Below the pieces are notes generated by a model, which was not told the DNA's origin, searched no databases, and saw only the letters and a list, made by a program, of their open reading frames with translations. From Lentzea guizhouensis (GTDB taxonomy: Bacteria > Actinomycetota > Actinomycetes > Mycobacteriales > Pseudonocardiaceae), in assembly GCF_001701025.1 (NCBI RefSeq), contig NZ_CP016793.1:4836001-4900000 (forward strand): a stretch of 64,000 bases of DNA, written 5' to 3'. The translations under genes and the position numbers were made by a program. Shown here in pieces: positions 4,938-10,661 of the stretch; position 1 is the stretch's first letter, and each line of letters starts with the position of its first letter.

Positions 4938-5975
4938 ATGTCGTACCAGGTCGGGCTCGACATCGGATCCGCAGCCACCACCGTCTCCATCGCCCGTGGC
5001 GCCACCACCACCCACCCACGCAAGCACGCCGGCGTGGCAGCCGAAGTCGCCGAAGTGCTCGACGAGCTGACGGCCCGATACGGCGAGCCACCGAGCCGGG
5101 TGGCCATGACGCATCGGTTGGGCTGGGACCACCACGTGCTGGAGGACCTGCGCGGTGAGCTCATCAGACATGGACGGCCGGACATCTTGTTCGTGCCGGA
5201 GCCGCATGCGGCGGTGAAGGCCTATGACGAGGTGGCGCGGCTGCCGGAGTGCAGCACGGTGGTGGTGTGCGACTTCGGGGCCAGTCGGTGCGATGTGACG
5301 GTGTTGTGCAAGCAAGGGGTGTTCATGGTGGCCGGGCGGCCGGAGACGGTGGACATCGGTGGGCGGGACATCGATGAGTTCGTGGCTGAGCACGTGGCGG
5401 CGCGGACGGGGTGTCTCACTGCTGAGCTCAAGCGGAGCTGTGCGGAGGCCAAGGAGTTGCTCGGGTCGTATCCCGAGGTGCGGGTGCCGGTGGTGGTGCC
5501 GGATGCGCCGCTCGCCGAGGTGCGGTTGAGCCGCTTGGAGTTCGAGGCGATCATCCGGCCCGCGGTGGGTCTGGTGGTCGATGCGGTGGAGCGGGTGAGG
5601 CACCGGCCGGACCTGATCCTCTTGGTAGGTGGGTCGGCGCGGATTCCGTTGGTGGCGAGGGAGATCGCGGAACGGTTGGGGATTCCGGCGATCAAGGCGC
5701 CGGACGGGGCGACGGCCAGGGGTGCGGCGCACGAGGCGATGCAGCTCGAGCCGGAGCCGGTGGAGGTGCCGGCGGTGTGGGTGCCTGAGCGGCGGGAAGA
5801 AGAGCGGGCGAAGAAGAGGGTTGGCGTTACGCCGTTTGTTGCCGTCGGGTTGATGGCGGTGGCGGGTGCGTTTGTGGCGCACGAGGTCATGGAGCCGGAG
5901 GCGCCGCGGGTGGTGGTGGAGAGCGTGCAGCTGCCGCCGCCCGGTACGGCGGCGTTGCCGGTGCTGCAGCCATAA
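4938..5975 (+). CDS. Hsp70/actin-fold ATPase lacking a substrate-binding domain, C-terminal membrane helix
   Basis: A 345-aa protein of the Hsp70/MreB ATPase superfamily. It has phosphate-1 VGLDIGSAATTVSIA (residues 5-19), a phosphate-2 motif VVVCDFGASRCDVTVL around residue 113-128 and the adenosine motif LILLVGGSARIPLVA around 228-242. The usual DnaK nucleotide-binding domain is about 380 aa and is followed by a peptide-binding domain. Here the nucleotide-binding domain is compact and is followed by a charged KKR segment, one hydrophobic helix (about 300-318) and a short Pro-rich tail. This suggests a membrane-anchored ATPase with the ATPase domain in the cytoplasm. An AAGGGG ribosome site lies 10 nt before the ATG. 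Similar short Hsp70-like proteins occur in actinobacteria; the function is unknown. Confidence 0.8.
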   Translation: MSYQVGLDIGSAATTVSIARGATTTHPRKHAGVAAEVAEVLDELTARYGEPPSRVAMTHRLGWDHHVLEDLRGELIRHGRPDILFVPEPHAAVKAYDEVARLPECSTVVVCDFGASRCDVTVLCKQGVFMVAGRPETVDIGGRDIDEFVAEHVAARTGCLTAELKRSCAEAKELLGSYPEVRVPVVVPDAPLAEVRLSRLEFEAIIRPAVGLVVDAVERVRHRPDLILLVGGSARIPLVAREIAERLGIPAIKAPDGATARGAAHEAMQLEPEPVEVPAVWVPERREEERAKKRVGVTPFVAVGLMAVAGAFVAHEVMEPEAPRVVVESVQLPPPGTAALPVLQP

Positions 5976-6132: not shown

Positions 6133-6876
6133 TTGTCCATCGTCACTTCACTGGATTCGTCCATCGAGGAGCACGTTCACCGCGAGGTGGACAACGAGCA
6201 GCTGTGGGTTTCGCGCAAGTCGTTCTACGAAACTGGCTTCGCGCTCGTGTCGTACCTTCTGCCGGACGACGTGAAAGCCATGGTCTCGGCTGAGGTGAAC
6301 GAGCTGCTGGCTGAGCAGTCCATCCGACGGGATCTGCACCTCGCGGAGACCAGCAACAGCCCGCGGTACATGCGCAACGTCACGGCTGCCGACATCCGCG
6401 CCCACGCCGGTGCGACCGTCGACCTCTACCGCAGCCCCGCCTTCATCAGGGCGCTGAGCAACGTTGCAGGTGAGCAGGTTCTCGAGTGCCCGTACGAGCC
6501 GGAGCACTACGTCATCACGCACCTCGAACGGCCTGGTGACACGCACGGCTGGCACTGGGACGACTACAGCTTCGGCGTCATCTTCGTGGTCGACTGCCCG
6601 GACGTCGAGTACGGCGGGTTCGTCCAGACGGTGCCGAACACGTCGTGGGACAAGACGAACCCGCAGGTGTTCAAGCAGCTGGTGAACAACCCGATCTATT
6701 CGTACGAGCTGAAGCCCGGCGACATCTACCTGCTGCGCACCGACACCACGTTGCACCGCGTGCACCCCGTTGAGGAAGGCGCCAAGCGCACGATCATCAA
6801 CATGGCTTACGCGGCCGAACGGGATCTGAGCAAGGAAATCTCGCACGAAACCATGGAAGACCTTTTCCGCGTCTGA
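6133..6876 (+). CDS. Fe(II)/2-oxoglutarate oxygenase of the BesD/HalD family, hydroxylase-type metal site
   Basis: A 247-aa protein if started at TTG 6133, which has GGGGAG at 6121-6126 in good spacing; an upstream GTG at 6088 is the alternative. It resembles the BesD/HalD family of amino-acid halogenases and hydroxylases: the segment [12 protein letters not shown] holds His141-x-Asp143 and TLHRVHP holds the distal His208, a 67-residue spacing equal to that recalled for BesD (His137/His204). BesD halogenases replace the Asp by Gly to make room for chloride. Here the Asp is present, so hydroxylation (or another C-H oxidation) of a free amino acid is expected, not halogenation. Family substrates are basic amino acids such as lysine and ornithine. 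It is the first gene of a four-gene operon with ArgG, a formyltransferase and a RidA-like protein. Confidence 0.8.
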
Positions 6877-6893
6877 TTGCCAAGAGGAGCGTC

Positions 6894-8126
6894 GTGGTCA
6901 ACAAAGTGGTTCTTGCCTATTCCGGCGGTTTGGACACCTCGGTCATCCTGGCGTGGTTGAAGGAGACCTACGAGTGCGAGGTGGTCGCTTTCATCGCGGA
7001 CCTCGGCCAGGGTGAGGAGCTGGACCGGGCGAGGGACAAGGCGTACGCGATCGGTGCGGCGGAGGTGTTCGTCGAGGACCTGCGGGAGGAGTTCGCGCGC
7101 GACTACGTCTTCCCGATGCTGCGGGCCAACGCCGTCTACGAGGACGGTTACCTGCTCGGCTCGGCGATCGGGCGGCCGTTGATCGCGGCCAAGCAGATCG
7201 AGATCGCGAAGACCGTCGGTGCGGACGCCGTGGCGCACGGTGCCACCGGCAAGGGCAACGACCAGGTGCGGTTCGAGCTCGCGTACCAGACGCTCAACCC
7301 GGACATCAAGATCATCACGCCCTGGCGCGAGTGGGATCTCAACACCCGGTCGCAGCTGCTCAAGTACGCCGCCGACCACGGCATCCAGATCGACAGCACC
7401 GGTGCCGCCGACCGTCCCTACTCGGTCGACCAGAACCTCATGAACACCACGTACGAGGGTGAGGTGCTGGAGGACCCCGGCGCGTTGCCGCCGCTCGGCG
7501 TGTTCTTCCGGGTGCGCGACCTCGCGGAGGCGCCCGACGAGCCGGAACGCGTCACGATCACGTTCGAGGGCGGCGACCCGGTGGCGGTCGACGGCGTGCC
7601 GCTGAGCGCGACCGACACGTTCGGCAAGCTCAACGAGCTCGCCACCAAGCACGCGGTCGGCCGGGTCGACATGGTCGAGAACCGGATCATCGGCATCAAG
7701 ACGCGTGGCGTGTACGAGACGCCCGGCGGTACGGTCCTGCTGACCGCGCGGCGCGCGCTGGAGGCGTTGACGATCGACGGCGAGGTGGCGTTGCTCAAGG
7801 AGGAGCTGATGCCGCGGTACGCCAGGCTCGTCTACCGCGGCCTGTGGTTCGCCCCCGAGCGGGAGATGCTGCAGGCGGCGATCGACCACAGCCAGCAGAA
7901 CGTGTCCGGTGACGTGGAGGTGGCGCTGTACAAGGGGAACGTGAGCGTGCTGCGACGCACCTCGCCGTTCTCCAAGCACAGCCGCAAGCGCGTGTCGTTC
8001 GAGGCCGGCGTCGGTGCGGCGGCCTACGAGCGGCACCACCCGGAGGGCTTCATCCGGATGAACGCGCTGCGCTTCGCGTCGGTGGCCGCGGCGGCGTCCG
8101 ACCCAGCGCCTGAGGGAGTTTCATGA
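6894..8126 (+). CDS. argG: argininosuccinate synthase paralogue (ArgG family, non-actinobacterial type)
   Basis: A 410-aa ATP-dependent ligase expected to join citrulline (or an analogue) to aspartate. The PP-loop [12 protein letters not shown] is at residues 6-17, [16 protein letters not shown] near 119-134 and the citrulline-site region [16 protein letters not shown] near 180-195. Start GTG 6894 has AGAGGAG upstream. Phrases such as [17 protein letters not shown] and [10 protein letters not shown] resemble the proteobacterial-type enzyme more than the actinobacterial housekeeping ArgG as I recall it (which has VDVGQGGEDL). With no argF or argH beside it, this looks like a pathway-specific copy acting with the neighbouring oxygenase. 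Its stop overlaps the next start (ATGA). A housekeeping role cannot be excluded without the rest of the genome. Confidence 0.9.
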
Positions 8127-9025
8127 GGATCGTCTTCTTCGGCTACGGCGAGCTCGGCGCGGTGGTGCTGAGCTCGCTCGTCGAGCACCACGACGTGGTG
8201 CTGGTGCTCACGCACCGCACCGAGTTCACCGGACTCGGCGAACCCCACGTGGCCGAACTGGTCGAGGAGCACGCGCTGCCGTGCGTGATCTCGGCGAACG
8301 GGCGCGAGCCGGAGATCCTCGGCCGGTTGCAGGAGCTGCAGGCGGACGTCATCGTCTCCACGAACTGGCGCACGCGGCTGCCCGGCGAGCTGCTGACCAC
8401 GTCCCGGCTGGGCGCGTTGAACGTGCACGACGCGCTGCTGCCGAAGTTCTCCGGGTTCGGCGCGATCAACTGGGCGGTCCGGCAGCACGAGAGCGAAACC
8501 GGCGTCACCGTGCACCTGATGGAACCCGAGCTCGACACGGGACCCGTCGTGGTGCAGAAGGTCGTGCCGATCGGTGACCACGACACGGCGACCGAGATCT
8601 ACGAGCAGGTGACCGCCCAGTACGTGCCGGCGACGCTGGAGGCGCTGGACAAGCTGGCCGCCGGTGACCGGGGCACGCCCCAGGACGCGGCGAAGCGCAC
8701 GTTCTGGCACCGGATCACCGAGGACGACACCAGGATCGACTGGTCGAGGAGCACCAGGGAGATCTACGACCTGGTGCGCGGCCAGTCCGACCCGTACGTG
8801 AACGCCTGGACGACGCTCGACGGCCGCAAGGTCGCGGTCAAGAAGGCCGCGCCGCCGTCGATGGGCTTCTGCGGCACGCCCGGCAAGGTCGTGCGGCAGG
8901 CGGACGGCGGTGTCGCGGTCGTGACGGGCACCGAGGGGATCGTCCTGCTGGAGGTCCAGGTCGACGGCGAACAAGCACGTCCGGCCACCGAGGTGTTCAA
9001 GAAGATGGGCGCCCGGCTCACCTGA
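8123..9025 (+). CDS. formyltransferase of the Fmt/ArnA/N-hydroxyornithine type
   Basis: A 300-aa formyl-tetrahydrofolate dependent transferase. The catalytic Asn-x-His is in [20 protein letters not shown] (around residues 95-114) and the catalytic Asp in [11 protein letters not shown] (around 133-143). A C-terminal OB-like domain follows (residues about 205-300), as in methionyl-tRNA formyltransferase and ArnA. The conserved tRNA-binding loop of Fmt is not evident and the start is coupled by ATGA overlap to the upstream argG-like gene, so a small amine or hydroxylamine substrate made by the operon is more likely than Met-tRNA. Related formyltransferases act on amino sugars and on N-hydroxyornithine. 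Confidence 0.82.
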
Positions 9026-9052
9026 TCGTGGCGATGCGGGAGGATGCGGTGC

Positions 9053-9442
9053 GTGCGTACCGCATCCTTCACGCCGATCAAGACGGCGATCCCCAGCCCC
9101 GGCTACGTCCAGGCCGCCAGCGTGCCCGGCGGCAGCAAGCTGTTGTTCGTGAGCGGTCAGATCCCCGCCGACGCCGACGGCAACGTGCCCGACGACTTCG
9201 AGGCGCAGTGCCGCCAGGCGTGGGCGAACGTGTTCGCCACCCTCGAGGCCGCCGGCATGGACCGCACGAACATCGTCAAGGCGACGACGTTCCTGGCCGA
9301 CCGCGAGTACCGCGGCGTCAACTCCCGTGTGCGCCGCGAGCTGCTCGGCGACCACGAGCCGGCGGTCACCGTGATCGCCTGCGACATCTACGAGGAGGAA
9401 TGGCTGGTGGAGATCGAGGTCGTGGCCGCGGCTACCGAGTGA
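9053..9442 (+). CDS. RidA/YjgF-family protein lacking the catalytic arginine
   Basis: A 129-aa Rid-family protein. GTG 9053 is preferred as start: GGGAGG (9038-9043) lies 9 nt upstream, while it would touch the ATG at 9044. The fold is recognisable from LLFVSGQIPAD, the FEAQCRQAWANVFATLEAAG helix and the C-terminal VEIEVVA strand. True RidA enzymes, which hydrolyse reactive 2-aminoacrylate/imine intermediates, have an Arg in PxRxxV; here the segment reads EPAVTVIACD with no Arg. It therefore belongs with Rid subgroups whose function is not imine deamination or is unknown. It sits 27 nt behind the formyltransferase, so it probably belongs to the operon. It ends in an 11-nt convergent overlap with the next gene. 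Confidence 0.82.
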   Translation: MRTASFTPIKTAIPSPGYVQAASVPGGSKLLFVSGQIPADADGNVPDDFEAQCRQAWANVFATLEAAGMDRTNIVKATTFLADREYRGVNSRVRRELLGDHEPAVTVIACDIYEEEWLVEIEVVAAATE

Positions 9443-10661
9443 GCGACCGGATCTCCGCGAGCGTCCTGTCGATCTCCTGCGGTGTGTTCACGATCGCGGT
9501 GCCGACGCGCGCGTAGGGGATCCGGTAGGGCGCGGTGGTGATCTGGATCCGCTTCTGCGCCAGCAGGGCGACGAGCCCCTCACCGGTCTGCCCGGCGACG
9601 TCGAAGCACACCAGGCCCGCGGACAGCCCTGGGTCGCGCGGTGTGTGGACGGCGACGCCGGGCAGGCCGGCCAGCCCGTCCTTGAACCGCGTCGCCAGCT
9701 CGGTGATGCGGCTCGCGACGCGGCTCCGGCCGAGTCGCTGGTGGAACTCGACGGCGGCTTTCACCGCGTAGAAGTGCTCGAACGCGTGGAAGCCGCCCGG
9801 CCCGGGCAACGCTGTGTCACCGCGGCCGCCCAGGCTCGGCAGCAGCGGCACGATCTGGTCGCCCACCTGCGGGTTCACCCACACCATGCCGGTGCCGCGC
9901 GGCCCGAACAACCACTTGTGCGTGCCCGCGACGAACACGTCCGCGCCCGTCTTCGCCGGGTCGTCGTCGACGGCGGCCAACCCGTGCACGCCGTCGACGA
10001 CGAGCAGGCAGCGGTCCTCCTGCGTGCGTCCCCTGTTCGCCTCGGCGACCACCCTGGCGCACGCCCGCACCGGCATCCGCAGCCCCGTGCTCGACTGCAC
10101 CCAGGTGATGCCGACGGCGCGGGTCTGCGGCGTGATCGCGTTGCGGAGCCTGGTCGCGATCTCGTCCTCGGTGGCCCGCGCCGGGCTCTCGAACAACGTG
10201 CCCACCCGCGTGCGCGCACCGGCTCGTCGCGCTGCCAGCTCCGCGGCCTGCCGGTGCCACGGGTGGTCCTGGTCGCTGAGCAGCAGCTCCTGGTCGGCGC
10301 GGAGCTTGAGGCCGCCGTAGACGATCGACAGCCCGACAGTGGTGTTGGGGACGAACGCGATGTCGTCCGCGTTGCCACCCGTGTACTGCCCGAGCGCTTC
10401 GGCGACCTTCTGCGCTTCGCCGGTCATCAGGTCGTGCGAGTTCGCGTCGAGCTTGCGCTTGAACGACTCGACCGCGTCCCGCACCTCGCGCGGGTTCGAG
10501 GCCAGGTAGAACTGGCCGAGGTTCACCAGCTCCGGGTCCAGCCGGAACTCACGCCGCACGGCGCCCCAGTCCAGGTCCTGCGCGGCCGAGGCGGCGACGA
10601 CCGGCGTGACGGCGAGCAGCCCGGTACCCATGAGGAAGTCACGACGCTCCACGCCTGTCAT
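9432..10661 (-). CDS. Tat-exported class-V aminotransferase (isopenicillin N epimerase-like)
   Basis: A 409-aa PLP enzyme. The N-terminus MTGVERRDFLMGTGLLAV is a twin-arginine signal, so the protein is predicted to be exported already folded. The class-V aminotransferase fold follows, with the cofactor lysine in VAGTHKWLFGPRGTG (around residue 268) and the PLP-binding Asp in LLVVDGVHGLAAVD (around 240). The nearest recognisable group is the isopenicillin N epimerase / cysteine desulfurase-like class that is often Tat-exported in actinobacteria; the substrate is unknown. It converges on the RidA-like gene, and the downstream (10639-11115) gene on the same strand overlaps its 5' end by 23 nt, suggesting a two-gene transcript read from the operator at 11119-11159. 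Confidence 0.85.
   Translation of the reverse strand: MTGVERRDFLMGTGLLAVTPVVAASAAQDLDWGAVRREFRLDPELVNLGQFYLASNPREVRDAVESFKRKLDANSHDLMTGEAQKVAEALGQYTGGNADDIAFVPNTTVGLSIVYGGLKLRADQELLLSDQDHPWHRQAAELAARRAGARTRVGTLFESPARATEDEIATRLRNAITPQTRAVGITWVQSSTGLRMPVRACARVVAEANRGRTQEDRCLLVVDGVHGLAAVDDDPAKTGADVFVAGTHKWLFGPRGTGMVWVNPQVGDQIVPLLPSLGGRGDTALPGPGGFHAFEHFYAVKAAVEFHQRLGRSRVASRITELATRFKDGLAGLPGVAVHTPRDPGLSAGLVCFDVAGQTGEGLVALLAQKRIQITTAPYRIPYARVGTAIVNTPQEIDRTLAEIRSLTR

Follow-up and report, generated by a model that had tools for sequence, protein, structure and literature searches.

According to the accessible parts of the sources, halogenases of the BesD group act on free amino acids, lysine and ornithine included (PMC10187165), and in halogenases of this kind the iron-binding Asp/Glu is replaced by Gly or Ala (PMC13244439). 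The orphan cluster nrps1 of Salinispora tropica encodes an argininosuccinate synthase (ArgG, A4X2R7), a formyltransferase (Fmt, A4X2R8) and a RidA protein (A4X2P5), all three of which were detected by proteomics, and the accessible part of that report gives no product structure (PMC7888443). Here we describe a cassette in which a BesD-related oxygenase gene is followed by genes of these three families. It spans positions 6133-9442 of a 64,000-nucleotide stretch of Lentzea guizhouensis DNA (NZ_CP016793.1, positions 4,836,001 to 4,900,000; hereafter “the window”), and the genome (G000) is a single contig of 10 Mb. The enzyme families of the cassette are known, but their combination, although conserved, is uncharacterised; we propose that it makes a modified basic amino acid, to be used either in free form or for incorporation into a peptide. 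A first-pass annotation, made from the sequence alone, had pointed to an undescribed route. This stands insofar as searches of titles and abstract starts in the open-licence literature showed no pathway with this gene set. The trio of oxygenase, ArgG and formyltransferase already lies in the published orphan cluster nrps1, and the set is therefore not wholly unseen.

Cassette layout and conservation

Four open reading frames (ORFs) on the same strand make up the cassette:
6133..6876, + strand: HalD/BesD-family Fe(II)/2-oxoglutarate oxygenase, hydroxylase type (start TTG 6133, alternative GTG 6088; PF23169)
6894..8126, + strand: second argininosuccinate synthase, ArgG (start GTG 6894; PF00764 and PF20979, TIGR00032, NF001770)
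8123..9025, + strand: Fmt/ArnA-like formyltransferase of a distinct clade (start ATG 8123; PF00551 and PF02911)
9044..9442, + strand: RidA-family protein without the PAR arginine (start ATG 9044 or GTG 9053; PF01042)
The oxygenase and ArgG genes are 17 nt apart, the ArgG and formyltransferase genes overlap in an ATGA, and the RidA-like gene follows after 18 nt (ATG 9044) or 27 nt (GTG 9053). The four genes and the spacings of 17 nt, ATGA and 27 nt given in the first-pass annotation were recovered with all frames open, the 27 nt applying to the GTG start.

The linkage of these genes is conserved and goes beyond chance. Genome contigs were scanned with aligned oxygenase relatives; the best 80 of the 211 relatives found were kept, which together with the window makes 81 loci, and partner genes were counted within 7.5 kb and above 38% identity. 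Oxygenase, ArgG and formyltransferase occur together at 11 of the 81 loci (the window, L041, L044, L045, L049, L051, L052, L058, L059, L063 and L090), hosted by the window genome, Nocardia sp. NRRL S-836, Saccharothrix, Winogradskya (2), Amycolatopsis, Actinoplanes, Sphaerisporangium, Salinispora, Micromonospora and a Micrococcales metagenome record. Two loci have the formyltransferase without ArgG (L060 and L062, the gene of L062 being apparently broken), none of the 81 has ArgG without the formyltransferase, and five combine a gene resembling ornithine carbamoyltransferase (OTCase) with a permease and have neither ArgG nor formyltransferase (L046, L047, L050, L053, L055). In L041 (NRRL S-836) the whole set is present, with the four proteins 96, 98, 91 and 97% identical to those of the window. 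The first-pass annotation had named separation of the four genes in related genomes as grounds for refutation; the neighbourhood analysis shows instead that relatives retain them as a group.

Searches with the formyltransferase gave a similar picture. Its clade (E <1e-85; next match 43% identity, 3e-68) was found in four of 390 family genomes and, at order level (397 genomes; next match after the clade 41% identity), in G838 and G000, making five distinct genomes. All five have a cassette-type ArgG and an oxygenase directly upstream of the formyltransferase. The phylum sample contained the clade in one of 396 genomes, that of the window. Four contigs are apparently common to oxygenase and formyltransferase in the two protein lists, and in Cystobacter ferrugineus oxygenase P0076 and ArgG P0125 apparently lie on one contig, which denotes a shared contig, not adjacency. 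The cassette set is rare but tight.

The stretch from G838 is nrps1 of S. tropica (oxygenase P0108). It has oxygenase, ArgG and formyltransferase in the order of the window, and a longer stretch of this genome adds RidA and a protein with condensation, adenylation and peptidyl carrier protein (PCP) domains; regulator, adenylation, decarboxylase, acyl-CoA dehydrogenase and ClpP-like genes were recognised there by eye or by likeness to L063. At L052, L059 and L063 the trio lies behind a large protein, which in L063 is a condensation-PCP-thioesterase. An AA_permease_2 permease follows the formyltransferase at five of the 11 trio loci (L044, L045, L049, L051, L090). The permease and the stand-alone cassettes suggest a free amino acid as product, and the nrps1 form suggests a building block. 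The survey of neighbouring genes by gene calling took in 43 of the 80 loci, in five of which the gene caller missed the oxygenase.

Insertion site

Two genes outside the cassette, both conserved in sister genomes, flank it in the window:
4938..5975, + strand: Hsp70-like gene, left flank (by Pfam)
9432..10661, - strand: pyridoxal phosphate (PLP) class-V gene, right flank (resembles PvdN, below its cut-off)
Eight other genomes of the genus have a close orthologue (E <1e-60) of an upstream flanking gene, and in all five that were read (L216-L220) the Hsp70-like and PLP class-V genes stand tail to tail with an overlap of 17-20 nt, whereas in the window the four cassette genes sit between them. The four-gene cassette was gained as one unit. 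At L041 the Hsp70-like gene went undetected, and behind RidA the PLP gene is represented by no more than 77 residues. A larger cluster in the window was rejected, since among the genes modelled in its first 40 kb there is no recognised peptide- or polyketide-synthetase-type protein (the Pfam scan covered eight window proteins). A mobile carrier was considered and rejected as well: no cassette relative was found among viral contigs, and the plasmid search returned 110 records with oxygenase relatives, all below 60% identity, and for the ArgG gene three Sinorhizobium records, in which 36% of the gene was matched at 73.7% identity.

Sequence features of the four enzymes

The oxygenase belongs to the HalD family (PF23169, 332.6 bits; cut-off 26) and aligns over most of its length with the solved BesD, HalB, HalD and BesD-family lysine hydroxylase. 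Its motif is HWD, where BesD has HWG, and D143 is invariant across 41 aligned sequences. With the Gly/Ala rule for halogenases, the HWD motif implies that the enzyme should hydroxylate, and a halogenase identity was rejected on this ground; the score for the BesD-halogenase equivalog NF042920 is below the cut-off (221.5 bits; cut-off 450). The first-pass view of a specialised-metabolism cassette is supported, with a basic amino acid as the predicted substrate by enzyme family.

Oxygenases of this kind are found in other settings as well. The closest ones outside the trio loci are those of L042 (Kutzneria viridogrisea, 93%) and L043 (Streptomyces sp. NBS 14/10, 91%), with neither ArgG nor formyltransferase within the stretches examined. 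Both loci have transketolase-like, class-IV aminotransferase-like and FAD proteins near the oxygenase and, by eye, oxidoreductase, phosphotransferase, adenylation and ketosynthase-like genes; the hydroxylated amino acid of the cassette may recur in their product. In L036 and L037 (also numbered L009 and L010; same family, genus g21) an oxygenase of 59-60% identity lies near a nitrosuccinate-lyase-like gene (559.7 bits; under its cut-off, 650), a hint that nitrous-acid or N-N chemistry may accompany this hydroxylase family. A nitrosuccinate-lyase-type query matched nothing in the window, the related loci or the G838 stretches except its own locus L036. Eight Nocardia loci (L066, L067, L068, L069, L073, L076, L077, L084) have the oxygenase followed by an alpha/beta-hydrolase-like gene, as judged by eye, and several of them have further genes in common.

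The cassette ArgG passes two equivalog models, TIGR00032 (448.6 bits; cut-off 268.2) and NF001770 (549.5; cut-off 334). The first-pass annotation had named it as a refuting case that this ArgG is the only one in the genome, which it is not: a distant ArgG (31-33% identical to that of the window) is present in 24 of 24 genus genomes and is of the NF003779 type in the window genome (840.9 bits; cut-off 657), so that the cassette ArgG, present in two of the 24 (G000 and G272, the latter apparently the genome of L041), is a second copy. Of the two class-wide ArgG matches (394 genomes), the other, L135, has no oxygenase or formyltransferase in its 1.5-kb flanks. The genome has one ArgH above the cut-off, about 133 kb from the cassette, and three weaker lyase matches below it. 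Elsewhere in G000, an ORF of 88 residues (L121:1198-1464), with an ArgR-like gene on one side and argH on the other, matches only a short piece of the ArgG C-terminal domain (PF20979, 28.4 bits; cut-off 27). It is perhaps what remains of an argG that the arginine operon has lost; the NF003779-type ArgG, encoded elsewhere, may have replaced it.

For the active site of ArgG, 14 cassette-type and 117 canonical rows were aligned. P0121 and P0124 were excluded as repeats of loci in the set, and P0122, P0123 and P0125 were included with their genomic context unchecked. The residues that we take, by analogy with human ASS1, to be ATP, aspartate and citrulline positions (Y86, T118, N122, D123, R126, S177, E262, Y274) are kept in every one of the 14 cassette-type proteins. 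Two further serines, presumably citrulline contacts on the same analogy, are A91 and T186 in the window protein; A91 also occurs in 20 of the 117 canonical rows, and position 186 is Ser in all 117. Four residues mark the set: S90 in place of Thr, G93 in place of Ala, I265 in place of Phe/Tyr and T270 in place of Ser/Ala. One sequence deviates at each of positions 90, 93 and 265, the deviation at 93 being P0125, which retains Ala. Smaller side chains (Thr to Ser, Ala to Gly) beside a presumed citrulline contact would suit an altered substrate.

The formyltransferase has both Pfam domains (PF00551 and PF02911) and stays below the Met-tRNA Fmt equivalog (TIGR00460, 158.7 bits; cut-off 201.5); a second formyltransferase is encoded at G000:C1:1028812. 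It falls into a clade of its own with about 64 proteins of 45-93% identity among the matches listed, the next near-full-length match having 39%, and the nearest named members beyond NRRL S-836 are from Lentzea (90%). The alignment comprised 65 clade sequences (the window and P0241-P0304, without the fragment P0305), and the 55 comparison rows still include two clade-like fragments, P0318 and P0348. N100, H102 and D138, which we take to be the catalytic Asn-His-Asp triad of formyltransferases dependent on 10-formyl-tetrahydrofolate, are invariant in all 65, and a GFG-[AS]-x-NW stretch is nearly so. The enzyme is predicted to be of a small-molecule type.

The RidA-like protein matches PF01042 (76.2 bits) and remains below the cut-off of TIGR00004 (58.3 bits; cut-off 106.25). 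The arginine of its PAR motif, presumably the substrate-binding residue of RidA, is absent in six of six aligned cassette proteins and present in both reference stretches (the truncated L051 protein was not aligned). PAVT, as in the window, PALT or FAMT takes the place of PAR, so the description of this RidA as atypical was apt. Among the cassette genes, RidA is the one most often missing elsewhere: it is found near six of the 11 trio loci, in L051 only as a 72-residue stretch.

Proposed route and rival explanations

We tentatively favour, at somewhat less than even confidence, a route of hydroxylation, side-chain formylation and conversion by ArgG and the host ArgH to a formamidine; all substrates and the order of steps are what we infer. 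The oxygenase would hydroxylate a carbon of free L-ornithine or L-lysine, and the formyltransferase would then transfer a formyl group from 10-formyl-tetrahydrofolate onto the side-chain amine. ArgG could activate this formamide with ATP and join it to aspartate, and host ArgH would release fumarate, leaving a formamidine (N-formimidoyl) amino acid that resembles arginine. The RidA-like protein might act on an imine-like or cyclising intermediate. The partner pattern slightly favours formylation before ArgG over the first-pass idea of a hydroxylated citrulline as ArgG substrate and a formyltransferase that only caps, since the formyltransferase occurs without ArgG and, at these loci, ArgG never without the formyltransferase. 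Further support comes from the conserved linkage and the empty insertion site, the HWD motif, the free amino acids (lysine and ornithine among them) used by the related halogenases (PMC10187165), the intact formyltransferase triad and ArgG site residues, and the permease near five trio loci. The more specific idea is possible, although we doubt it more than we believe it: ArgG would have been recruited to turn N-formyl groups into formamidines, so that formyltransferase, ArgG and host ArgH would make arginine mimics from ornithine or lysine. Such a device would need no carbamoyl phosphate, and a BesD-family hydroxylase would supply the hydroxylated amino acid.

Mass data from S. tropica allow a weak check, made after the hypothesis and against 17 self-chosen names. 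In the accessible part of the nrps1 report (PMC7888443), subtraction of the core C16H21NO3 (reported for ions 4 and 6, assumed for 7) leaves C6H12N4O3, C6H13N3O2 and C7H15N3O2. The second is the formula of N5-formimidoyl-ornithine, equally of 5-guanidinovalerate, and gives weak support; C7H15N3O2 fits formimidoyl-lysine or a methyl homologue, and C6H12N4O3 fits hydroxycapreomycidine or formyl-norarginine. As a side observation, Table 2 of that report prints a fragment of m/z 142.0979 as C6H12NO3, and its calculated mass of 142.0975 is that of C6H12N3O.

Several observations weigh against the formamidine route, and some of them speak for a ureido substrate instead. Ions 4, 6 and 7 are tied to nrps1 by correlation only, as far as the accessible part of the report goes (PMC7888443); C6H13N3O2 lacks the oxygen that hydroxylation should add, other isomers fit this formula too, and N5-formimidoyl-hydroxyornithine, the prediction of the full pathway, matches none of the three Salinispora units. 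The nesting of partners rests on two loci, one with a decayed gene. An ArgH query had no match in the 64-kb window, 17 related loci or two G838 stretches. The oxygenase side is loose, with 63 of the 81 loci lacking any tested partner in a family that has many other partners, and with three of 11 strong matches (E <1e-40) in 297 family genomes beside ArgG (1.5-kb flanks). Moreover, ArgG passes its two equivalog models and retains most of the presumed citrulline site, so that a ureido substrate would be equally natural. This ureido route is close to the first-pass reading. Ornithine or lysine would then be hydroxylated and carbamoylated by an enzyme of the host or of the L049 kind to hydroxycitrulline, ArgG and host ArgH would yield hydroxyarginine, and the formyltransferase would cap the alpha- or another amine. 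The best argument for this is L049, where ArgG, formyltransferase and permease are followed by a divergent OTCase-like gene and a short-chain dehydrogenase. Counterparts of that OTCase-like gene, 67-71% identical to it, accompany oxygenase and permease at the five Streptomyces loci (L046, L047, L050, L053, L055; L047 also has a short-chain dehydrogenase), probably a sister pathway to a carbamoylated hydroxy amino acid. Yet 10 of 11 trio loci have no OTCase-like gene within 7.5 kb, and the L049 protein scores below the OTCase cut-off (265 bits; cut-off 306). The formyltransferase would have no necessary step, although no locus has ArgG without it (the trio being defined by it), and none of the three Salinispora units in the accessible data corresponds in formula to arginine, hydroxyarginine or citrulline, a weak test. 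On balance, we regard the ureido route as the main rival, somewhat less likely than the formamidine route.

ArgG might also work without ArgH, in that the aspartate adduct is kept, or that a nearby hydroxyl or amine traps the activated formamide or ureido group and so closes a ring (cyclic amidine, oxazoline or tetrahydropyrimidine), with RidA perhaps assisting. The lack of an ArgH-type lyase in the window and the checked loci and the loss of the PAR arginine common to cassette RidA proteins fit this view, and the ArgG-family nitrile synthetase, as far as its report is accessible, indicates that the fold performs other chemistry too. The genome has, however, an ArgH able to serve, and RidA is close at only six of 11 trio loci, which leaves such a route improbable. 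That a spare arginine-pathway ArgG and a spare Met-tRNA formyltransferase came to lie beside the oxygenase by chance is very hard to credit. ArgG looks catalytically complete in sequence, but the linkage is conserved, another ArgG exists in 24 of 24 genus genomes (here an NF003779 equivalog), and the formyltransferase is below the Met-tRNA cut-off in a genome with a second one. Spare housekeeping genes were thus rejected as the main explanation on the conserved linkage and the second copies.

The cassette points to a compact, movable route to a probable arginine-like amino acid or building block. The set exists by itself, accompanied in some relatives by an amino-acid permease, and also as part of a marine peptide cluster with a product still to be isolated. 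With only four or five genes it could be expressed directly, and the chemistry of nrps1 thereby becomes testable. If the conversion of formamide to formamidine is true, ArgG gains a new reaction.

Comparison with known systems

Arginine biosynthesis by ArgG and ArgH shares with the cassette an ArgG above two equivalog cut-offs. Unlike that pathway, the cassette has its ArgG as a second copy, with changes near the presumed citrulline site and no linked ArgH. An ArgG fold outside arginine biosynthesis is known from the nitrile synthetase (PDB 9lei, 9leh; accessible part of PMC13060819), which is distant from the cassette ArgG (80 bits, where a true ArgG reaches 470). With the BesD/HalD radical halogenases and the BesD-family lysine hydroxylase (PDB 6nie, 7u6i, 7u6h, 7jsd) the window oxygenase has the Pfam family in common, but it differs from BesD in HWD for HWG, a hydroxylase by motif, and in falling short of the BesD equivalog. 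The formyltransferase shares both Pfam domains and the presumed N-H-D triad with Met-tRNA Fmt and ArnA-type sugar formyltransferases and, unlike Met-tRNA Fmt, is below the cut-off in a separate clade. In nrps1 the trio belongs to a larger cluster for a peptide synthetase, among condensation, adenylation and thioesterase parts and genes for a decarboxylase, acyl-CoA dehydrogenases and ClpP, whereas the window cassette stands alone, with RidA next door and Hsp70-like and PLP class-V genes on either side.

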